Program-made: the position numbers and the translations under genes | Shown: piece by piece, positions 20,152-49,800 of the stretch | Position numbering within the stretch: the stretch's first letter is position 1 | How the letters are laid out: every line of letters begins with the position of its first letter | Source of the DNA: a virus | Virus record (IMG/VR): IMGVR_UViG_3300042890_002482 | Location: 1-60,514 of that record | Strand: one strand, 5' to 3' | DNA length: 60,514 nucleotides | The notes under the pieces: model-generated | Seen by the model: the letters and a program-made list of their open reading frames with translations, nothing else | Told to the model about the DNA's origin: nothing | Databases searched by the model: none

Positions 20152-20823
20152 ATGAGCAACCCTCACGTCCATCTTGGAGAAATAGTAGATATCAACGACC
20201 CTTTGAAGCAAGGAAGAGCGAGGGTTAGAATTTTTGGATTCTTTGAAGATCTAGAGATTGAAGATATTCCTTGGGCAGAACAGATTTCAGGTCTTTCCTT
20301 CTCCTCTGCAAGAGGGAATGGAAACATTAGTGTTCCTAGGGTTGGAGCAATAGTAAATGCCCAGTTTGATGGGTCCAATTACTACAAAGTCTTCTATGAA
20401 TTCGAAAAGGAGACATCCCCTGATTTATTAGCCGAGATTGCAGATTCGTACGAGGGAGCACAGTCCATCTGGTACGACACGGATGCACAGCCCGGTCCTC
20501 TTAAACTTTTTTATACTAGAAAGAAGGGTTTAGTAATCTCACTAGGAGACGCTAAAGTCCAGCTGGACACACAGGACGGAGGGCAACTAAGAGTTGTGAT
20601 CGAGATGGGAAGTGATCAGATTAGAATGGAGAACAGCAAGGTCATCATCAACTCCAATAATATAGAACTAGGAGAAAATGCAGTCGAGGCAGTCATTAAG
20701 GGAAATACCTTCCAAAACTATTTCAACTCACACACTCATATCGGAAATCTAGGTGCTCCAACCAGCACCCCAGTCGTACCCTCAACCCCGAATCATCTTT
20801 CGACGGTCAGTAAAACCCGATAA
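20152..20823 (+). CDS. Baseplate spike protein, OB-fold gpV/gp5-like
   Basis: This 223-residue protein is probably the membrane-puncturing spike at the tip of the tail. The N-terminal region (residues 5-90) has the classic spike OB-fold sequence pattern: GEIVDINDPLKQGRARVRIFG, then IPWAEQISG, then a VPRVGAIVNAQFDG strand. Residues 100-185 show short beta-repeats (KVQLDTQDGGQLR, KVIINSNNIELG), as in a needle-like beta-helix. The tail carries HTHIGNLG and Pro-rich sequence, where metal-binding HTH-type motifs are common. There is no lysozyme domain, unlike T4 gp5, so cell-wall digestion must come from elsewhere. Confidence 0.75.
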   Translation: MSNPHVHLGEIVDINDPLKQGRARVRIFGFFEDLEIEDIPWAEQISGLSFSSARGNGNISVPRVGAIVNAQFDGSNYYKVFYEFEKETSPDLLAEIADSYEGAQSIWYDTDAQPGPLKLFYTRKKGLVISLGDAKVQLDTQDGGQLRVVIEMGSDQIRMENSKVIINSNNIELGENAVEAVIKGNTFQNYFNSHTHIGNLGAPTSTPVVPSTPNHLSTVSKTR

Positions 20824-20829
20824 TCCAAT

Positions 20830-23526
20830 ATGGCAGTTCTTCCGAATAAGATACTAACAGACCAGAAGATAACAGAGTTCATAGATCAAACCAACACAAA
20901 TGCTAAAGACATAGTTGGCGATTCTAAGTTCGTTATTCCTTCCCCAGATCTCCCGGGGATCGGAATGCTGATTAAACTCTGGATTAGACAGAGCGAAAAA
21001 GCATTCTCCTCCTATTTTGTTCCTATTCTAGCCGTGAAGGATTCCCTTAGTAATTTAACAGAGATACCAGGGAAGATCCAAGACATTAGTGGATTTATCA
21101 CAAACCCCGTCCAGACCCTATTGAACGAGACGATCAACAACCAGGTTGCTTCGGACTTCTTTCTTCCCCTTAAACTCATTCTCAATGGCAAGTCCTCTGC
21201 AGATTTTGGAAGACTGAAAGATCTAGTTGATAGAGCAGACTCGGAGATAACTTCCCCTGCTGCAGACACGAGACCTAAATTCCCGTATGTGCTGGGTAAG
21301 ATAGGATCTGAGCCTGAACCTGGAGAATATACAATCAACACCCCGGACCCAGAAACGTCCACCTTACTGTCGATTAATCTGCAGGACTATAACGGTGACT
21401 CTACTGGTGCATCTTTTTCCTCTCTGATAGTAGGAGATGTAATTAGTCTAGAACAGGATGGGATCTCTCAATCTTGGATTATTAAATCTATTATAATAAA
21501 TCCCGGATATTACTCTTTTGGTGTGGTTCCTCAGAACGAAACCGCATCCCAGGAATTGTTTGCAGTAAGGGAGAAGACCGTATATTTACAAACAAACCCT
21601 AACCCTTTAACTGCAGGAGCAAAAGCACTCCTTGCTCTTCTGACCGACGGAAGTGGGAAAATAAAATTCCCGATCACAATCACATTATCTGATCTCCTTC
21701 CTGTTGTTGGACTTCCAAGTATTGGATTTCCTTTAAACCTAATCTCGCTGGAGATCGGAAACTTTGATGCTCTTCCTGAGGACAGTCCTCTTGCAAAAAA
21801 AATCAAGGACCTGGAGGACAAGAGCGGGTGGAATTTCCAGACTGATGTCCTCGACAAAATTCTAAAGGGAAAATACCCGAAGATAGATTATCCTGCAGAT
21901 CCAAATCAGCCGAAGTCCGAGAAATTAAAAGCTAGAGAGGAACTTCTTGCGATTGCAAAGCTGGTTCAGCTGATATTTACAAGTCCTGGAGATTTTTTTA
22001 AGATCATTGGAAACTACCTAAAACTTCTCCTTCTCCCCCTTCAGATTGTCGTCGGAACTATAACTGCAATCTTTAGTGCTGTTCTTGAAAATCCGCTGAG
22101 CATTTTTAGTATCATTTCTAAATTTTTAACCGATCCACTTGGAGCACTCGGAGATCTCATAGCGGAAGCAATCTTAACATCTATTCGTCCTTATCTAGAA
22201 CCGACACTTGTCTCTGCTGGAATAACCTGGGAAGATGCCACCAACGAGACGATAAACGGAAGAAAAACCGGAAAGGGGCTTGAACCCTTAATCAGTGACC
22301 TTGTGATCGGAAGATTTAAGTGTAAAGGCATAAAAGGAACAGGGAATGCTACCGTGTCCCAGACTTCCCCGACCCCAGGATCGACCGGAGCGGAGTCTTC
22401 TATAGAATTTACCAACTACAGCTATTCGATTAAGTACGACGGAACCCCTCCTGAACAGGGAGAAGTCTCGTTAAATAATTCTGACTTAAATAAAGTCAAC
22501 ATTATTAAGATAAGCTCGATTGATGCAAATGTAAATTCAACTCTTTCTAACCTTGTTGAACTTACCCCTGGATCTGAGATCTCTATCCCTAAAGATGGAG
22601 GAACCTGGGTCTATGCTGTAAACCAAAGAATATCCCCAACCGGTAATCTTTCTTACTTTGACTACCAAGTCTCTCTAGTCTATGGGCCAGGCCAAGAATC
22701 CCCTGCAGGGATAGCAGACCAGATTAAGAATGCGTCTTCTCCTGTGAATGGTACAAATAGGGCAGTACTTTCCCCTGGTGCAAACCTTGCAAATTTCCAG
22801 TTTGCTTCTTCTGATCCTCTTCTTCAGTGTTTAATCGAAAACTATCTTCCAATTAAGATTATAGCAATCTGGGAAAGTGTTAAGGGAATCCTCGGGATCA
22901 TTCTAGGATTTGCTGCTACTATTCCTTCCTTAATCGGAGCTGTGTTTGAATCTATCTTTAGCCTTCCCGAATTTAGCAATCCCCTAGCACCTCTTCTTCA
23001 GAATCTGGTAGATTCAAACGGAACCCCGTTGGATGGGATTTTCTCCACTTCCTCTTCTGCTTCTGTTCTAGATGCCTTAGACTCTCTAACCTCAACTAAT
23101 GGAATAGATCAGATCTTTAAAAGAACATCAGATAAAACATCTTTGAAAACAGTTTATCCGAATCTTGTTACTGATAATAACTTTAAAAATAATATCGGAA
23201 TAGATTCTATCAGCACAGTGGATCTGGGAAAAAGAATAAAAATTCTTCTGGCTTTGGCTAAACTTGAGTCTACCTCAGTCAATAATCAGGGGGATGTTTT
23301 AGTTAATTTTTCTGCCGCTGCTTCTACCGTTTCCAATAAAACGGTAACAGTTAAGTTCTTTGATGGGACTGAGCAAACTGTCTCCCTATCCGACTTTAAT
23401 AAGTACAGAATTTCCAAAGAGGAGGGAAACCCTTTGGATAAAATTACCGGACTTAGATATATTCAAGACATTAAAGGCCAGCTAGAAATAGCAGCAGCAC
23501 TTTTGAAAGCACAAATCGTAGTGTAA
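20830..23526 (+). CDS. Large hydrophobic virion protein, possible tape-measure or hub component
   Basis: In this 898-residue protein, two regions are strongly hydrophobic and helical: around residues 380-450 (with LKLLLLPLQIVVGTITAIF and LENPLSIFSIISKFL) and 670-720 (IIAIWESVKGILGIILGF). These could be membrane-interacting segments. A beta-rich part lies between them. It is the last gene of the central baseplate operon, directly after the spike. Hydrophobic helices in a tail protein are typical of tape-measure proteins, which eject and help channel DNA, and tape measures are often encoded near hub genes. The family is not recognised from motifs, so this is a structural inference. Confidence 0.4.
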   Translation: MAVLPNKILTDQKITEFIDQTNTNAKDIVGDSKFVIPSPDLPGIGMLIKLWIRQSEKAFSSYFVPILAVKDSLSNLTEIPGKIQDISGFITNPVQTLLNETINNQVASDFFLPLKLILNGKSSADFGRLKDLVDRADSEITSPAADTRPKFPYVLGKIGSEPEPGEYTINTPDPETSTLLSINLQDYNGDSTGASFSSLIVGDVISLEQDGISQSWIIKSIIINPGYYSFGVVPQNETASQELFAVREKTVYLQTNPNPLTAGAKALLALLTDGSGKIKFPITITLSDLLPVVGLPSIGFPLNLISLEIGNFDALPEDSPLAKKIKDLEDKSGWNFQTDVLDKILKGKYPKIDYPADPNQPKSEKLKAREELLAIAKLVQLIFTSPGDFFKIIGNYLKLLLLPLQIVVGTITAIFSAVLENPLSIFSIISKFLTDPLGALGDLIAEAILTSIRPYLEPTLVSAGITWEDATNETINGRKTGKGLEPLISDLVIGRFKCKGIKGTGNATVSQTSPTPGSTGAESSIEFTNYSYSIKYDGTPPEQGEVSLNNSDLNKVNIIKISSIDANVNSTLSNLVELTPGSEISIPKDGGTWVYAVNQRISPTGNLSYFDYQVSLVYGPGQESPAGIADQIKNASSPVNGTNRAVLSPGANLANFQFASSDPLLQCLIENYLPIKIIAIWESVKGILGIILGFAATIPSLIGAVFESIFSLPEFSNPLAPLLQNLVDSNGTPLDGIFSTSSSASVLDALDSLTSTNGIDQIFKRTSDKTSLKTVYPNLVTDNNFKNNIGIDSISTVDLGKRIKILLALAKLESTSVNNQGDVLVNFSAAASTVSNKTVTVKFFDGTEQTVSLSDFNKYRISKEEGNPLDKITGLRYIQDIKGQLEIAAALLKAQIVV

Positions 23527-23528
23527 AA

Positions 23529-23537
23529 GATATATAC
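23529..23537 (+). promoter_or_regulatory. GATATATA promoter-like element before the S1-like gene
   Basis: GATATATAC ends 30 bases before the ATG at 23568, in the 41-base gap after the hydrophobic virion gene. It implies that the S1-like/amidoligase unit has its own late-type transcription start. Confidence 0.45.
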
Positions 23538-23567
23538 AAGAATTCACCCTTTTAAACAACAAATATA

Positions 23568-24737
23568 ATGGAAAAAATCTCTTTAGGAAAAGAAGAAAAA
23601 GAAACCTTTAACTGGGACATTCCCAGTGGACTGACCGTAAACAAAAAAATTCACACACCTGGGCACACAAAAATTTATTCCCATGAGGGATATGCTTCTG
23701 TTTTGTATTCTCTATATTGTGGATCTAATCCAAGCGTTCTTGGATTCTCTAAGGATCTACAGGACGGGGAAATTTACAAATGTAGAATTACGACAGTTAG
23801 CGAAAATACTGCTCTTGGACACACCGAGACTGGCCAGACCATTTTTATTGATCTAAAGAAAGAGAGGAAAGATGCAATTAGATTAAACATCCAGGGTCTT
23901 GACTTCTCAGTTTCTAGTGAAATAGAAGCTATCGTTAGAGACATTAACGGAACTTATCACGGTTCGGTTGTTGAGTGCTATGTTCATAGTCTGAAGGCAG
24001 AATTTTTCGACCAAATTAAGAAGTGCTCTGTTGCATATCCTGCTAAAATCGAATCAGTTAACAAAGGTGGATTCCTAGTTGATATTTCTGGAGTTAAGTG
24101 CTTTATGCCTGGCTCTCTTGCAGCGGCGAATAAAATTACAGACTTTGAATCTTACCTAGGGAAAACCCTCTATGTAATGATAGACGGCTACGTTCAAGTT
24201 AAAGATATTTTCGTAGTTTCCTACAAGAAGTATTTGAATCACATCATGAATTCTAAAATCCAAGAGCTAGATCTTACCAAGAAATACAAAGGTTCTGTTA
24301 CCGGATCTTCTTCGTTTGGTTTGTTTGTTGAATGGGAAGACATCTACACCGGTCTGATTCATAAAACAGAATTCGAAAATCAAGTTGTTCAAGGGTTCAA
24401 TCCTGGTGACGAGATAGAATTCTACGTTAAAGAAGTTAAAGAGGACAATAAGTTGACCCTGACTTTTGGTGCTCCTGTTGAGAAGACCGTTAAGATCTAC
24501 GAGATCAAAGAGGCAATCGACAATGGAACTATCCAAACTATGGCTGGGATTATTAAGTACAAGAGAAAAAATGGATGCTTAGTTGAAGTTCCCGAAACTG
24601 GAATGATGGCTATGATCCCTCAAGAAAAAGTAACCGAAGATCTTAAAAATGCTAAACCTGGAGACAGGATTGCAATTTTGATCTACGAAGTAGACCCAGT
24701 AATGGGAAAAATATTTGCAAAACCTGTAAATGTCTAA
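23568..24737 (+). CDS. Ribosomal protein S1-like RNA-binding protein
   Basis: This 389-residue protein has at least three OB-fold S1 domains. Domain one spans about residues 156-222 (AKIESVNKGGFLVDISG, then FMPGSL), domain two 238-301 (KYKGSVTGSSSFGLFVEW, then TGLIHKTEF, then PGDEIEFYVKEV), and domain three 324-386 (AGIIKYKRKNGCLVEVP, then MAMIPQE). A fourth, degenerate one may lie at 66-98. Host S1 has six domains and helps the 30S subunit bind mRNA leaders. A shorter viral version could compete for ribosomes or favour phage messages. It is followed by an amidoligase-like gene overlapping by eight bases (ATGTCTAA). Its leader is A-rich. Confidence 0.75.
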   Translation: MEKISLGKEEKETFNWDIPSGLTVNKKIHTPGHTKIYSHEGYASVLYSLYCGSNPSVLGFSKDLQDGEIYKCRITTVSENTALGHTETGQTIFIDLKKERKDAIRLNIQGLDFSVSSEIEAIVRDINGTYHGSVVECYVHSLKAEFFDQIKKCSVAYPAKIESVNKGGFLVDISGVKCFMPGSLAAANKITDFESYLGKTLYVMIDGYVQVKDIFVVSYKKYLNHIMNSKIQELDLTKKYKGSVTGSSSFGLFVEWEDIYTGLIHKTEFENQVVQGFNPGDEIEFYVKEVKEDNKLTLTFGAPVEKTVKIYEIKEAIDNGTIQTMAGIIKYKRKNGCLVEVPETGMMAMIPQEKVTEDLKNAKPGDRIAILIYEVDPVMGKIFAKPVNV

Positions 24738-26151
24738 CGACCTAAATCACTTTGATAGACTCCATGCTTTAAATGCATCGGTCATTGGATTTGAATTCGA
24801 ATTCTTTTCCAACATGGTCCGTGGTAGAATCGTGGAGTCTCTATCTAAGCTTTTAGGAAAGAAGGTAATTCTATCTTCTAAATACCACTCTAAAATTCCA
24901 GTTAATCAAGACACGTTCAAACTTGAACCCGATTATTCAGGGGGAAGTAAGATGAACGAGCTTATCACTGGTCCTATGCCGTATGCAGAGGCAATGCCCG
25001 TTCTGATTAAGGTTTTAAGATGGATAGATGAAAATGGATGGACTAACGACAAGTGTGCTTTCCAGTTCTCCGTCAGCTTCGACAAAATGAGAAAAGACGT
25101 TGTTACCAGAATGGAAAACCTGGATAGACTCCAGTTTATTCTGGGACTGGACGAAGGAATGATCTATTCTAAATTCGGAAACAGAACAAATAACGTCTAT
25201 GCAAAATCTATCAAAAAGGTTACTCCTAGAAATAGATTTACCTCGATAGAAAATTTAACCAATATCGACCCTAAGATCTTTAAACTTCCTGACGATAAGT
25301 ACTACGGAGCCAACTTTACAAAGTTGAAGGACGGGTACATTGAGATCAGATATCTCGGAGGCAGGGACTACCAGAAGAAGATAACTCAGATTAGAGAAAT
25401 CATCGACTACGTAATTATCCACCTTTATAACATCCTCAGCGGAAGATCATCATACACACAGAAGGATCTTGATTCACTAAAGCAGATGATGAGAGAATAT
25501 TCTAAGGTTGTGAAAAGCTTCTCCGACCCGAGAGCCTTCTTTATGCACTATCCAGATCTTCATCTCCTGGTCGATCTAAAGGGTTTTGAAGAGAATATCA
25601 AGTCTTACTTCCCTATGATCAGAGATAAAGTTTTCGATCTGATTGTTGATGGAGACGTTAGACATGGATTTTTTAACTATGACACATCAACTGGAAGATT
25701 TCAGCTGAAGAACTCCAGAATTAGAGACGCTGCTGCTGTTACCGATATTGATCTTTTGGACTGTGATATCAAAGGATCTAGACTTTTAAACTGCAATCTA
25801 TATTCTTGCAAAGTTAAAAATTGTCAGGTTGAGGATTCCCAAGTTATCACTGGAAATACAATTTCTAATTCTAAAGTTAAAAACACTTCGGCAGATTATT
25901 CCAATCATCTGGACGACTGCTATATCGATTGTGCAGAAAAGATTGTCGACTGCGACATTAGCGGAGGAGTTATTAGAAAAGCAGATCTTGGAAGAAATGC
26001 TAAAGTTAGCGAAGAGACAGAAAAAGTAAAAGACTTTGAAGACGTAAGAGCCCAGAGATTTATCTCCGACTCTAGATTGAAGGACGTTAATGTTCACTTC
26101 AAACCTCAGAAGTTTAGAGATCAAAACTGGAAGTACAAAAAACTATACTAA
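24730..26151 (+). CDS. Amidoligase-like protein with C-terminal beta-helix-like repeats
   Basis: This 473-residue protein has motifs resembling the glutamine-synthetase-fold amidoligase family, which form amide bonds between a carboxyl and an amine using ATP: GFEFEFF (residues 20-26), EPDYSGGSKMNELITGP (66-82), FQFSVSFD (111-118) and YIEIRYLGGRDY (203-214). These supply the expected acidic and arginine residues. The usual His-x-His after the second motif is replaced by Gln-Phe-Ser. Residues 335-420 form a Cys/Asn/Asp-rich repeat region with short strands (LLDCDIKG, LLNCNLYSC, KNCQVEDSQ, VDCDISGG) suggestive of a right-handed beta-helix. It overlaps the S1-like gene by eight bases, so the two are coupled. 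The substrate is unknown. Confidence 0.55.
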   Translation: MSNDLNHFDRLHALNASVIGFEFEFFSNMVRGRIVESLSKLLGKKVILSSKYHSKIPVNQDTFKLEPDYSGGSKMNELITGPMPYAEAMPVLIKVLRWIDENGWTNDKCAFQFSVSFDKMRKDVVTRMENLDRLQFILGLDEGMIYSKFGNRTNNVYAKSIKKVTPRNRFTSIENLTNIDPKIFKLPDDKYYGANFTKLKDGYIEIRYLGGRDYQKKITQIREIIDYVIIHLYNILSGRSSYTQKDLDSLKQMMREYSKVVKSFSDPRAFFMHYPDLHLLVDLKGFEENIKSYFPMIRDKVFDLIVDGDVRHGFFNYDTSTGRFQLKNSRIRDAAAVTDIDLLDCDIKGSRLLNCNLYSCKVKNCQVEDSQVITGNTISNSKVKNTSADYSNHLDDCYIDCAEKIVDCDISGGVIRKADLGRNAKVSEETEKVKDFEDVRAQRFISDSRLKDVNVHFKPQKFRDQNWKYKKLY

Positions 26152-26153
26152 TC

Positions 26154-26927
26154 ATGACCGAAGCGGAACTAATTCAAGAGATAAAGGACGACTTATCGGC
26201 GTCTTGCTCACTTCCTTATAACTTAAATGATCAGGAGATCATTAGAATTATTAACAGGGCAAAAGCCTGGATGTACGACAACTACCAGTATGCGGTGGAG
26301 CAGAGATTCTTTGTTCTAGGATCTACTCTTTTTGCTACCCCAGAATTTTTAAGAACTAGACAGATTCAGCTCCCGGAGAAGATTGTCACCGTATTCGACG
26401 TTAGAGAAGCAAACAATCCTGGTGTTTCTGGAAACCCAGATAGAGACTTTGGTAGTTCTAAGCTTCTTGGTTCTGAACTTCTTCTTTCTCCTTTTATGGG
26501 AGACAACCTAGTTTATAGAACGGTAATGTACTCCTACTTCGATCTTGCAAAAGCATATCTCCTAGAGACATTTGCTTTCAGATGGAATAAGAACACCAAA
26601 AAATTAACTATCCTGGGGAGAAACCCAGCAGGATCTCCAAATAACGTTGGAACTGGCCCTAATAACTACGTTAGATCTGTTGCAGTCAGCTGCTTTGTTG
26701 CAATCGAAGATTCTGAACTTTTCGACGACGAACTTTTTTCTAGATACTGCAGGGCAAAAGCTAAGCAGCAGCTGGCAAGAGTAATCAGCGCGTTCAACTA
26801 TAATCTTCCTGGTGGGGTTCAAGTAAACTCCGGAGACTTGAAAGCAATGGGAGACGTTGAAATGCAGGAAGTAATGGACATGATCAATGGAGAAAATACT
26901 CCGTCCTACTTCCTTCAGTGGAACTAA
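26154..26927 (+). CDS. Structural protein upstream of the wedge genes, unassigned
   Basis: This 257-residue protein has an N-terminal helical part (EIIRIINRAKAWMYDNY), a central part with strands, and a C-terminal helix ending in a Trp-rich tail (SYFLQWN). It starts two bases after the amidoligase gene and ends 59 bases before the gp25-like gene. I think proteins of this type are virion components in marine T4-like phages, with a neck or connector role possible. I cannot support a named T4 equivalent. Confidence 0.45.
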   Translation: MTEAELIQEIKDDLSASCSLPYNLNDQEIIRIINRAKAWMYDNYQYAVEQRFFVLGSTLFATPEFLRTRQIQLPEKIVTVFDVREANNPGVSGNPDRDFGSSKLLGSELLLSPFMGDNLVYRTVMYSYFDLAKAYLLETFAFRWNKNTKKLTILGRNPAGSPNNVGTGPNNYVRSVAVSCFVAIEDSELFDDELFSRYCRAKAKQQLARVISAFNYNLPGGVQVNSGDLKAMGDVEMQEVMDMINGENTPSYFLQWN

Positions 26928-26986: not shown

Positions 26987-27358
26987 ATGATAGAGATTTA
27001 CAACAGAGATCCGGGAGATTTTGGCTACAAAAAGGACATTTTAGAGACGACAGATCCAATCGAGATCTGCATCGGCCAGCTAAAGATGCTTCTTTTGACC
27101 AATAAAGGGGAAGTCCTTGGCGACCCTAACTTTGGAATCAGCTTAGACGAATTAGTCTTCAATTTGGAACTGTCCGAGAATTCGATCAGAAGGGAGATAG
27201 ATTTCCAAATTAACACCTACTGTACACTTTTTTACCAGCTCGGTGGATACTTTAAATTGGAGTTTTTCCAGGGAACCCTGAGAGATATAGCAAATCTATA
27301 CTTCTTTATCCCCGGATATTCTAATTTGAGTCCAGCAATATCACTACAAGTAACATAA
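26987..27358 (+). CDS. Baseplate wedge protein, gp25-like
   Basis: This 123-residue protein has the length and order of the T4 gp25/W family, the wedge subunit that binds the sheath and starts its assembly. Family features include an N-terminal strand followed by ETTDPIEICIGQLKMLLLT, then GEVLGDPNFG (residues 41-50), and a helix-strand C-terminus. It is a reliable marker for the contractile wedge and precedes the gp6-like gene by nine bases, the same order as in many myoviruses. Confidence 0.8.
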   Translation: MIEIYNRDPGDFGYKKDILETTDPIEICIGQLKMLLLTNKGEVLGDPNFGISLDELVFNLELSENSIRREIDFQINTYCTLFYQLGGYFKLEFFQGTLRDIANLYFFIPGYSNLSPAISLQVT

Positions 27359-27367
27359 CCCACAGGA

Positions 27368-29095
27368 ATGAATAATATTTTCCAGAAAAATAATATCTTA
27401 ATTAGAGGTCTGCTCAGCACGACCTATAACTTTTTGCAGAAGACTTACAATCAGAGCAGGAACGTATTCACAACAGCTTCTGCATGGGGACAGATCCTAT
27501 TTGTTCTGGAGAATCTTTCCCAGCTGATTCTTTACTTTATCGAGGATTCCATCACCGAATTGAACATCTACGAAGCAACTAGAGATTACTCTGTTAGAAG
27601 CTTAGCTAGAATTGCAGGATATGACCCTGCAAGAGCAATGGCAGCCCAGGGTGAAGTTGCAGTTTCCTGGAATCTAAAGACAACATCCGTTGGCGGAGGT
27701 GCAGTTATAATCCAAGAAAACACTAGAATTCAGTGTGAGCAGAATGGACTTGCATACACTCTGATGATCAATGGTCCCAGAGTTAAAGTTTCTCTAACGA
27801 GAGGAACCTCTTTTAAGTTTAAGACAATTCAGGGAGCATTTAGTACAACCACCTTCACCGGAACCGGGAACGCGCTTCAGAGTTTCAACGTTCCTGTAAA
27901 GGGAGGGGTTTTCTTAGACCAGTTCAACGTTAAAGTTACCGTCAATGATAATAGATGGAAGCAATATTCTTCCCTGTATGACATTCCTCTAGAAGGGGAA
28001 GGTTATCTAGTGATGTCCGGAATCAACGAGGGGATAGACATCTACTTCGGAAATTCCAACTTCGGAAAAGTACCACCTCCTGGATCTTTTATTAAAGTTG
28101 AATATCTGCAGACTTCAGGATCACTTGGAAACCTAAGATCCACTGCTACCTCTAAAATTACCTATAAGTTCCTAGACCAGGGAACAGACTTATTCGGAAA
28201 TGCGGTTAATCTGAACGACTATCTACAAATAGTAAACACCGTAGACCCATCATTTGGGGCAGACGAGGAACCTATTGCTATCACTAGATTGGCAGCTCCA
28301 AAAACTAGCAGGGCATTCGTCTTTGCAAATGCTGCAAACTACGAGATTTACCTTCAGAAGTTTAACATCTTCTCTCAGATCCAGGCCTTCTCTACTTTTG
28401 ACGATGAGTATCTGGACGATGATAACGTAGTCTACCTCTACCTAGTTCCGGATGTGACTATTGGGCTCACTTCTAACGAGGACTATTTCAGCATTCCTAT
28501 ATCTTCTTTCTTGCTAACTCAGGCTCAGAAGCTAGCAATCCTTAATTTAATCGAAGATTCTGGGTCGATGATAGCAACTACCGTTGTTAAGATAGTAGAA
28601 CCAAGAATTTCCAGATATGTAGGAAATGCAATCATTACCGTATTTGAAGGATTTGACCCGGAGATTATCAAGGACAAAATCCAGTCGACTATTTCCACAT
28701 ACTTTATCAACTTGAAGAGAAGGGATAAAATTCCTAAATCCGATATGATCGCTTTGATCGAATCTGTTCCTGGTGTTGATTCTGTTTCTTTCTATTTCGT
28801 AGGACAAGCAAACGAAGCTTACCATGCTACGATAGACAATCTTCCAAACACCAGCGTTTCCGAGTTGAACACCAATATTGGATTTGATGAATTTGGAGAT
28901 ATAATTATCGGAAGAGGAGAACTAGTTGTTATTAGAGGTGGATGGAACGACAGATACGGATCTTCCTATGAAGTTGGAATCGTACCAGGGAAACCTTCTG
29001 CATTAAACATCTCTATTAAAGGGATAGTTCCAGTTACTTATCTTTCTGAACTTGGAGCAGAAACTAAAGCTCAACTAATAGCTGCAAATAAATAA
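27368..29095 (+). CDS. Baseplate wedge protein, gp6/baseplate J-like
   Basis: This 575-residue protein follows the gp25-like gene and shows the gp6/J layout. An N-terminal helical region is followed by LARIAGYDPARAMAAQGEV, a beta domain (including VIIQENTRIQCEQNG), and a C-terminal region with KDKIQSTISTYF and KIPKSDMIALIESVPGVDSV, the typical end of baseplate J proteins. Two copies per wedge would form the ring that changes shape when the baseplate opens. The length is close to T4 gp6 (660 residues). The start has a good A-rich leader. Confidence 0.8.
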   Translation: MNNIFQKNNILIRGLLSTTYNFLQKTYNQSRNVFTTASAWGQILFVLENLSQLILYFIEDSITELNIYEATRDYSVRSLARIAGYDPARAMAAQGEVAVSWNLKTTSVGGGAVIIQENTRIQCEQNGLAYTLMINGPRVKVSLTRGTSFKFKTIQGAFSTTTFTGTGNALQSFNVPVKGGVFLDQFNVKVTVNDNRWKQYSSLYDIPLEGEGYLVMSGINEGIDIYFGNSNFGKVPPPGSFIKVEYLQTSGSLGNLRSTATSKITYKFLDQGTDLFGNAVNLNDYLQIVNTVDPSFGADEEPIAITRLAAPKTSRAFVFANAANYEIYLQKFNIFSQIQAFSTFDDEYLDDDNVVYLYLVPDVTIGLTSNEDYFSIPISSFLLTQAQKLAILNLIEDSGSMIATTVVKIVEPRISRYVGNAIITVFEGFDPEIIKDKIQSTISTYFINLKRRDKIPKSDMIALIESVPGVDSVSFYFVGQANEAYHATIDNLPNTSVSELNTNIGFDEFGDIIIGRGELVVIRGGWNDRYGSSYEVGIVPGKPSALNISIKGIVPVTYLSELGAETKAQLIAANK

Positions 29096-46876: not shown

Positions 46877-46882
46877 TCCTGA

Positions 46883-46888
46883 AAGGAG
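46883..46888 (+). promoter_or_regulatory. Unusual Shine-Dalgarno-like site before the 1976-residue gene
   Basis: AAGGAG lies 11 bases before the ATG at 46900. Almost all other starts in the window have A-rich leaders without such a sequence, so this site is an exception and may raise translation of this gene. The spacing is longer than the usual optimum of 5-9. Confidence 0.3.
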
Positions 46889-46899
46889 TTTTTAAAAAA

Positions 46900-49800
46900 A
46901 TGGCGACAGAACAACTATTTGACTACAATAGTTCCTTTGGAGTACTTAGGACAAATCCTAAGTTAACTGGGAATCTAAAACTGACCCTAGATTCTACGGG
47001 AGGAATGTGGTTCAATTCGATGGATGTGAATCCAACCCTAAGCCTTCAGAAATATAAAAAGTTTAGCATCACGGGAAAAAACACGTATGCTAAGGACGTT
47101 TATAATTTCTTCGACGAGGGAAAAACCCCTAACGACGTAATTTTCCAGGTTGGAAATTTTACGAACGGAGCTAGCCAACCGGCAGACAACTTTAGTTCCC
47201 AGTATGATTTTTTCTATGGATCGGGAGCTTCAACCCTGATCGATAGAAACTACACGGAGAACTTCAAGTACTTTCAGCCTCTTTGGATTAGAGATGTCCT
47301 TCCTGAATTCTTCGTCATCTTTAAAGTTCCTCAACCTTTAAGCTACCCTTATCCAACCAACGTCTCTACCATTTCGGATGGGATTCAGTATAAAGTTATA
47401 GCTAGTCCAAATTCTACAACCCCATTTATTATTAAATATTGGGACAACCAGACCAGCAGATTTATTGAATATGCTGATGGGGAATTTTTCTACGGAAATA
47501 GCATTTACAACACTTATACGGTAGTTCAGGGATCTGGAGTTGTAACGGAGATGAACGAACTGAAGTACTACGACGAGGTGAACAACGTCGAAGATTTTTT
47601 CAACTCGAAAGTACTTCCTTATGCACAGGTAATTTCCACCTTCGATCTTAGGTCTAATACCCCAATCGGAGCATATATTAGATCTCTAGTAAACAATCCT
47701 GGGTTCAGCAACAACCCAATCGATGTTTCTTTCCAGCCCAATACATTCTCCTATTTCAATGGGGTTAGCATTAAAGAGGGTGTTTTGACCCAGAAGGGGG
47801 AACTCTTAAATAGCTACTTTACTTCCCCATCCTCTAGTTCACAAATTGATTTTGAGGAGTATATTACTGATGGATTTTCTCGAAACGGGATAATTTGTCC
47901 CAATGTATTGAATCTAGAATTTTTATTCGATGACCCAGACTCTGATCTTTATACCATCAACAGGTATATGGGATTCTATGTTTCTAGAAATGATCTTGGA
48001 GAATTTAAACTAAATGGACAATATTTCTACGACAATAGAAACGATGCGGATAATCTAAATCTTCCTAAACCGACCAGAAATAATCTAGGCTATTACTACA
48101 ACTCAAATCCGGCTTATCAGAGCAGCACTGGCGGGGTTAGACTCTACTACGAGGGTGCTTCTGGATGGATGCCTGGATCTGAAGACGTCAACGTTAAAGA
48201 CCCACAGAAACTGTACTATGTCGTCGATAAGTTGGAAAGATTTTATAGTTTATCCAGATACGAGAACTACGTCCAGAATGCCATTTATCCCGATGGGATC
48301 TGGTTGAACAACACTCCGGATTATCTGAGGTTTGGGCCTTACTATCCGAACAATCAGAACATTGACAAGGCCTATTCTGTTTTAGACGCAGATTCTCAGT
48401 ATGGGTATGTTAATATTTTAACTCTAGGAGATCATGGATTCGAGGACGGGTCATTAGTAACCATTACTGGATCTACTCCTCAGATTAATGGGCCTTGGAG
48501 GATTACAGTCCCTTCGGGAGCTACCGGGAATTCATTCCAAATCCCAATCGCTCTCTCTGCTGGAGCTGGAGTTGTTACCGGGAGTACCGGGTATATTCCT
48601 GGATCTACCGTAAACTACGTCGACACCACGGTGTACCCCTCCCAGGGTGCTTCTGGAGGTTTGATCGCGGGAACTACCGGATCTACCGTTTATCAGACTG
48701 GATCCCTGGTAATTGGAGACACCAAAGTTGATCTACTGGACTTTACCGGCCCCGACGAGAAGATAGGATCCTATATAGGAAACATCACAGGAGAAAGGGG
48801 AAGATCTTACATGAACGTCACGTTCCAACAGTCCTTGGATCTTTCCAACCCAGTTATTTTCAAGATCTTCTGGCCTAATGGGTCCAGGGGAGAACTGAAT
48901 AACAAGTATGATCTGGTTACTTCAGGAGACTATGCGGGAACCCTAACTGGATGGTCTGCAGGATCTTATTATTCTACAGGAGACGACTTCTACTTCAATT
49001 GGACTCAGGGAACACCTACCCAGATAGCGAAGGCATTCACTGGAGCAGTTTCTGACATTTCCACAGTGGTTTGGGATGCTGCAACGTCAAGTGCTGGATC
49101 AACTTCACCTGCGGATGCAATTATTAGAATTAAGAATCCAGGAGCAAATCAGAATCTACAGTATTCTATCAGCGTCTTCTCGGACTACCCTGCATTTGAA
49201 GCAAGCTATACCGGTACCTGGAACAACACTTCTGCCTACTCGGTAGGATCTATTGTTACCTACGACAACAACTACTACGAGACAACCACAGCGGTTGCCC
49301 AGAACACGTTCAATACGAACTTACCTCCGACAGAGTCTGACGACTGGACACCCTACTATCCTTTCTCGTATCCTGGATACGTTAGTATCGGAGGAGTTGA
49401 TGCGTCACAAATATCTTACGTGCAAAACTTCGTAGGTGGAACCAACTACACTAGGAATAGAGTTGCCTTCTCTGCTGCAGAATCCGGAAATGTCATACCT
49501 GGAAACTGGATTCAGGTCCAGTCGGGAAAGGGAATAACCGGGGGAATGTCTCAGATTTCTTCTGCGACTAGATACGTCGATTCCCCAATCTACGACAACG
49601 ATCCTTTAGCAGTGACCGGAACCGTAACTGGATTTAAGGGATATCAAGAATATTTAGTTGCAAATCTTTCGGATAACAGTGCCATCATTGAACTTGGATC
49701 AAATTCAAGCTTCAATGTCTTTAGCATGGCTAAACTCTATTCTGGAGTTTTCACCTTCTTCGACCTTAAAACTATCGATTTTGACTTCTGGTCTTCCTCA

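Follow-up and report, generated by a model that had tools for sequence, protein, structure and literature searches.

A bS1-like protein gene overlapping the gene of a predicted amidoligase-like protein in the tail cluster of a huge phage

We analysed a 60.5-kb virus fragment (IMG/VR record IMGVR_UViG_3300042890_002482, positions 1-60,514), the whole of which is referred to here as the window. Relatives of the window genes came from huge phages, including LR756500-LR756504, LR745206 and the Lak phages, and the source of the window is a huge phage infecting Bacteroidota-type bacteria. Parts of an earlier study of huge phages name Bacteroidetes as the predicted hosts for Lak phages and for five genomes of >634 kb (Al-Shayeb et al., 2020; PMC7162821). 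The genes for an S1-like protein and an amidoligase-like enzyme (AMD) are embedded in a tail/baseplate cluster on the + strand, between spike and wedge genes. The order is a gp5/gpV-like baseplate hub/spike protein (20152-20823; phrog_430, E 4e-12), a variable 898-aa protein, S1, the enzyme, a connector-like 257-aa protein directly 3' of the enzyme (n257, 26154-26927; phrog_211, E 1e-9), a gp25-like baseplate wedge (26987-27358; PF04965, E 0.0016; phrog_261, E 6e-5) and a gp6-like baseplate wedge (27368-29095; phrog_219, E 2e-27). The gene filling the gap between spike and S1 (20830-23526) was highly variable, with a match in only 27 near loci, and other near loci carried different proteins of about 480-1700 aa in its place. 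Neither tRNA nor Rfam features were found in the window.

A promoter-like motif, GATATATA (23529-23536, + strand), ends 31 bases before the start of the S1 gene. The window held eight copies on the + strand and none on the - strand; + strand sites at 1768, 8506, 10349, 23529, 26959, 40104 and 60233 lie mostly just 5' of gene starts. The motif, which recurs in the window and in relatives, is likely a phage promoter element. Among 55 distinct relatives, 50 had it in the 80 nt preceding S1 and one had it upstream of the enzyme, which makes transcription of the two genes from a single promoter probable. The original prediction had placed them under one late-type promoter; the shared motif supports the single promoter, while 'late' is deduced from the surrounding genes only. 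It had also described, for most genes, A-rich leaders devoid of Shine-Dalgarno (SD) sequences, and this description held. The S1 leader (23537-23567, + strand) is of this kind; the window's leaders are rich in A, and an SD-like 4-mer was found at only 2 of 42 starts, compared to 19% of random window stretches. The only clear SD-like leader in this SD-poor window (AAAGGAG, within 46880-46900) lies 5' of a 1976-aa gene at 46900. In huge phages the presence of S1 correlates with the rarity of SD sequences, and a role in translation initiation has been proposed in parts of the same huge-phage study (Al-Shayeb et al., 2020; PMC7162821). Initiation on an SD-less mRNA rose twofold in vitro on addition of Flavobacterium johnsoniae bS1 (PMC9976891).

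The S1 gene (23568-24737, + strand) encodes a protein of 389 aa that matched PF00575 (E 2.3e-14, 54 bits against a cut-off of 22), and its predicted structure (pLDDT 81.7) contained four OB-type domains, in line with the three to four domains originally predicted. The top Foldseek match of the model was ribosome-bound bS1 (9gut_B, E 6.8e-23, 370 columns). Compared with D1-D2 in 30S/70S complexes, the predicted model gave TM scores, normalised to the target, of 0.75 for 9guq_B (D1-D2 on the 30S pre-initiation complex), 0.71 for 9gup_B and 0.69 for 8peg_Z; full-chain TM scores were low, as expected with flexibly linked domains, but this is no proof. A profile built from 41 S1 relatives matched Escherichia coli bS1 (E 2e-42), its alignment running colinearly through D2-D3 (residues 112-258). 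Domain 1 (residues about 66-152; 23763-24023) appears in the secondary structure of the model as a degenerate domain followed by a long helix. No sequence homology was found between the N-terminal 160 aa and any solved bS1 D1, and the assignment of this domain therefore rests on the model. Domain 2 (residues 157-218; 24036-24221) carries the bS1 D2 signature GGFLVDISGVKCFMPGS; the pattern GG..V...G..AFLPGS, then D3, is present, and G167, G168, F179, P181 and G182 are invariant. Domain 3 (residues 239-299; 24282-24464) presents the canonical S1 RNA-binding face F250/F253/H265, with F253 and H265 conserved in 41/41 relatives and F or Y at position 250 in 37. Domain 4 spans residues 325-386 (24540-24725). 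Models of rpsA matched all 41 members far below cut-off, the window S1 scoring 71.9 bits against the rpsA equivalog cut-off of 577 (TIGR00717), and PHROG families gave only insignificant matches. The best model match to ribosome-bound bS1, the D2 and RNA-binding signatures and an N-terminal motif (see below) indicate that this is more than a generic S1 protein.

The N-terminal motif F14-N15-W16 (23607-23615, + strand) is an instance of the F[DN]W motif common to Bacteroidota bS1. We read host bS1 proteins from 80 Bacteroidota loci, mostly Flavobacteriales; their starts include EEFLANFNWHNFQEGID and GDFDWDAYEKG, and phage S1 starts include ETFNWDIP, DFNWELYEGG and DFDWSIYDDGY. The pattern [FY][DNSE]W was seen near the start (first 150 residues) of 77 of 78 host proteins. 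Within the first 25 aa it occurred in 35/41 phage S1 proteins compared to 2/1917 non-S1 ORFs from the loci of these phage proteins, and it is absent from five phage S1 proteins. The N-terminal stretch was also aligned when host and phage S1 profiles were compared (overall E 7.5e-24). E. coli bS1 is not known to carry this motif. The sequences suggest that the phage protein may dock via the host's own anchor, the F[DN]W N-terminus, but the motif could also reflect plain descent from a Bacteroidota bS1.

The adjoining gene (24730-26151, + strand) encodes a 473-aa protein whose predicted model (pLDDT 86.7) combines a glutamine synthetase (GS)-fold domain with a beta-helix. PF12224 (Amidoligase_2) matched the window protein just below its 22-bit cut-off (E 3.8e-4, 20.8 bits) and matched 21 of 26 close relatives (best E 5.6e-7). 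Seventeen glutamine synthetases were present among the 18 Foldseek matches at E <= 1e-3 (best 1.4e-5, probability 1.00); gamma-glutamylcysteine synthetase (GCS) followed at E 2.7e-3, and the tail matched pentapeptide proteins. The whole-chain TM score against GS was only about 0.25, and the fold call hence relies on Foldseek statistics (E-value and probability) together with the motif pattern. In the GS/GCS-type catalytic domain (residues 17-306; 24778-25647), the motifs E22xE24, K64xEPDxSGG, E77, R152xxN155xY157 and E205xR207 were fully or almost fully conserved across 48 diverse members; E22, E24, D68, E77, R152, E205 and R207, comprising the ExE, acidic-ligand and ExR positions, were invariant. 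Position 112, the His of an HxN motif, is H in 32 of 47 relatives and Q in 15, Q112 being found in the window clade. The pentapeptide-type beta-helix (residues 313-420; 25666-25989) was recognised by PF13599 in 34/48 members and shows up in the model as a succession of short strands. No ATP-grasp match was seen in Pfam or among the top Foldseek matches, no bacterial or archaeal relatives were found in 84,980 genomes scanned, and matches to PHROG families were insignificant. Taken on its predicted structure, the family is related to GS-fold amidoligases. It shares this predicted fold and the ExE, acidic and ExR motifs with the Amidoligase_2/GS-GCS superfamily (PF12224), and differs in its occurrence here in phages only, the beta-helix, Q112 in place of H and the loss of the active site in one lineage.

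The S1 and enzyme genes overlap by eight bases at the stop/start junction ATGTCTAA (24730-24737, + strand). The original prediction had described this overlap, a partner gene with amidoligase motifs and a beta-helix-like tail, and both ORFs were found as described. It had named conservation of the pair in related phages and structural comparison of the enzyme as checks, and conservation of the pair and a relationship to GS-fold amidoligases were both supported, the latter with the qualification that the GS-like fold is matched at a low whole-chain TM score. The two genes were adjacent in 89/89 near contigs carrying both, and the overlap was present in 88 of them with offsets of -8, -11 or -1 bases, a recurrence that is not due to chance. 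As a control, the AMD-n257 and gp25-gp6 pairs were likewise 100% adjacent in near relatives, but rarely overlapping. Adjacency was therefore rejected as proof of a functional tie between S1 and the enzyme; the overlap alone is distinctive for this pair.

We extended the comparison to a deep set, whose enzymes are 25-40% identical to the window enzyme. In 33 contigs S1 and the enzyme shared a cluster; 18 of these had the two genes side by side and two had them overlapping, and inserted genes separated 45% of the pairs. In many of these contigs the upstream genes were inverted, yet the order S1, AMD, n257, gp25, gp6 was retained. In the enzyme tree a single branch (100/100) separated the S1-linked genes from all others, indicating that the linkage was gained once or lost once. 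The two genes lie far apart in the whole records LR756501, LR756502, LR745206 and LR756504. S1 was found with no detectable enzyme in Lak-A2, Lak-B5 and three other records, where the S1 match ends before domain 4, while enzyme-bearing records with S1 appear to carry this domain; the five S1-only phages may be one lineage and thus a single contrast, and several of the records are fragments. In the unlinked clade the enzyme adjoins tail-side genes (homologues of W13782, W15755 and W16349) or lies near n257/gp25, often on the opposite strand, and across lineages its linkage is either with n257-gp25-gp6 or with genes of the sheath/tube side. Its position beside tail genes in the unlinked clade favours a role in particle assembly.

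Several further features of these loci were observed. In unlinked phages (L095:11826-14102 and relatives) a cluster of proteins with a median length of 533 aa lies 3' of the enzyme, mostly at +1/+2, in 52 loci, and one member matched the DHH family (PF01368, E 2.4e-5). Inserted genes, lying between S1 and the enzyme or next to them, often begin with MRAKFVNE, MQANFVYEA or MKYIKEYSEFVNES (L193:2680-3072, L195:5818-6111, L197:2427-3107, L209:9243-9758, L093:8940-9323 and others). By eye, these tags resemble T4-type capsid-targeting leaders with a protease site, and the proteins are possibly packaged. In relatives, genes resembling homing endonucleases, again by eye, were seen between n257 and gp25 and between S1 and the enzyme (L045:10263-11594, L048:10265-11596, L068:6839-8044, L195:5145-5759 and L199:6517-7203).

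One deep clade of 19 S1-linked enzymes (L186-L214) has lost the active-site residues; the motif blocks align without gaps. E22 is replaced by V, I or other residues, D68 by E, S70 mostly by E or D, E77 mostly by Q, R152 mostly by Q and R207 by N; position 112 is mostly K, and G210 and Y214 are kept. Linkage to S1 and the baseplate genes persists in this clade. Catalysis is thus not what retains the enzyme gene there, and modification of the ribosome does not explain in general why S1 and the enzyme are paired.

Among known systems, bS1 (rpsA), especially that of Bacteroidota, resembles the window S1 in the D2 signature, the D3 RNA-binding face and the F[DN]W motif and, going by the predicted model, possibly in a D1-D2 arrangement like that on the 30S. 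It has six domains where the window protein has about four, with a D1 unrecognisable by sequence, and unlike bS1 the window protein is encoded by a phage within a tail cluster and scores far below the rpsA cut-off. It is of the same kind as the S1 proteins described in parts of the huge-phage study (Al-Shayeb et al., 2020; PMC7162821), having relatives in Lak phages, LR756500-LR756504 and LR745206, and adds to that description the N-terminal motif, the operon position and the enzyme partner. The claim that the pairing had not been described before was therefore sustained in part: S1 in SD-poor huge phages and its role in initiation had already been proposed there, while no description of the S1-enzyme pairing was found in the literature searched. 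The literature searched also yielded nothing on an S1 domain in a jumbo-phage virion. In Bacteroidetes phages, bS21 is encoded in a structural region and expressed late, and a late take-over of translation has been proposed (PMC9723584). Both it and the window S1 are ribosomal-protein genes in a structural region, although the ribosomal proteins differ. We found bS21 (PF01165) in 10 of 30 related records (L107, L117, L124, L146, L153, L054, L094, L095, L096 and L097), at least 15 kb from S1 where both could be placed. Given the late bS21 of structural regions, a place in the tail cluster also fits a translation protein, and S1 and the enzyme may share an operon for different reasons.

We propose that the S1 gene gives rise to a shortened bS1 look-alike with a Bacteroidota-type N-terminal motif, a D1-D2 docking half and two further RNA-binding domains. 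Expressed as part of the tail cluster, it would take the place of host bS1 on the 30S subunit, or share that site, and supply the ribosome with A-rich phage mRNAs lacking SD sequences, mainly the late structural messages. We infer both the docking and its late timing, and consider it likely that the protein docks on 30S for late phage mRNAs; the match of the model to ribosome-bound bS1, the conserved D2 and D3 residues, the shared F[DN]W motif, the depletion of SD sequences, the in vitro effect of F. johnsoniae bS1 and the published late bS21 all speak for it. The overlapping gene would yield the GS-fold amidoligase-like beta-helix protein at a fixed ratio to S1 via translational coupling, and this protein may have a part in assembling the particle, where it would ligate or scaffold a tail or packaged protein rather than act on ribosomes. 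An assembly role is the most likely one because the most constant neighbours of the enzyme are tail and baseplate genes; it is more likely than ribosome modification, the putative substrate being suggested by these neighbours. The window enzyme retains nearly all of its catalytic residues, which would be odd for a pure scaffold and speaks against this explanation. On the S1 side, the score far below the rpsA cut-off, the lack of a sequence match for D1 and the low full-chain TM scores also count against it. As a whole, an S1 mimicking bS1 for late phage mRNAs accompanied by a particle-assembly protein has about an even chance of being right.

From its location among tail genes, S1 itself could be a particle protein. 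Both products would then serve in the particle, S1 as a tail/baseplate component or a protein co-injected with DNA and the enzyme linking or scaffolding a tail part; both genes do lie between spike and wedge genes in an order kept in deep lineages despite upstream inversions, and S1 is found near gp6 in the enzyme-less phages L187, L215, L218 and L224. A purely structural part would, however, have no need of the bS1 D2, the RNA-binding residues and the host-bS1-type N-terminus that S1 keeps, and we regard this alternative as unlikely, if worth serious attention. S1 may instead be a free RNA-binding regulator, of mRNA stability or antitermination, that merely sits in the same late operon. S1 domains are widespread, and in the deep set few adjacent pairs overlap (2/18) and many are interrupted (45%); however, the match to ribosome-bound bS1 spans several domains, not single S1 domains, and a linkage with one origin or one loss has been retained for long, so that this reading appears quite improbable.

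The original prediction had raised the possibility that the pair is a translation take-over module, in which the amidoligase modifies a ribosomal or translation partner or the S1-like protein. As considered here, amino acids would be attached to one of these targets, be it a ribosomal protein, a translation factor or S1 itself. Coupled overlap in 88/89 near relatives, confinement of the linked genes to one side of a single enzyme-tree branch (100/100), the mostly intact active-site residues of the window clade and the missing S1 domain 4 in the five S1-only phages examined are all consistent with it. The proposed RimK-like action was not supported by the comparisons. RimK, an amide-bond-forming ligase acting on a ribosomal protein, resembles the window enzyme by analogy only, and the RimK-like reading was rejected on fold, ATP-grasp in RimK and GS in the prediction for the enzyme. 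The active site is eroded in the 19 linked relatives, position 112 is Q in the window clade and H in 32/47 relatives, the enzyme stands apart from S1 beside tail genes in many huge phages, Lak-type phages have S1 alone, and other neighbours are equally strictly adjacent. The take-over hypothesis is thus weakened, and we consider it very improbable. Least probable of all is a combined scheme, in which a bS1 mimic with the host-phylum N-terminal motif would replace bS1 on 30S and a dedicated GS-fold amidoligase would modify the mimic or the 30S subunit to favour the replacement.

If the phage S1 docks via its Bacteroidota-type N-terminus, it would make it simple to test how ribosomes indifferent to SD sequences are redirected by huge phages. 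In one lineage the enzyme gene has been retained after its active site was lost, which for this family points to a use other than catalysis.
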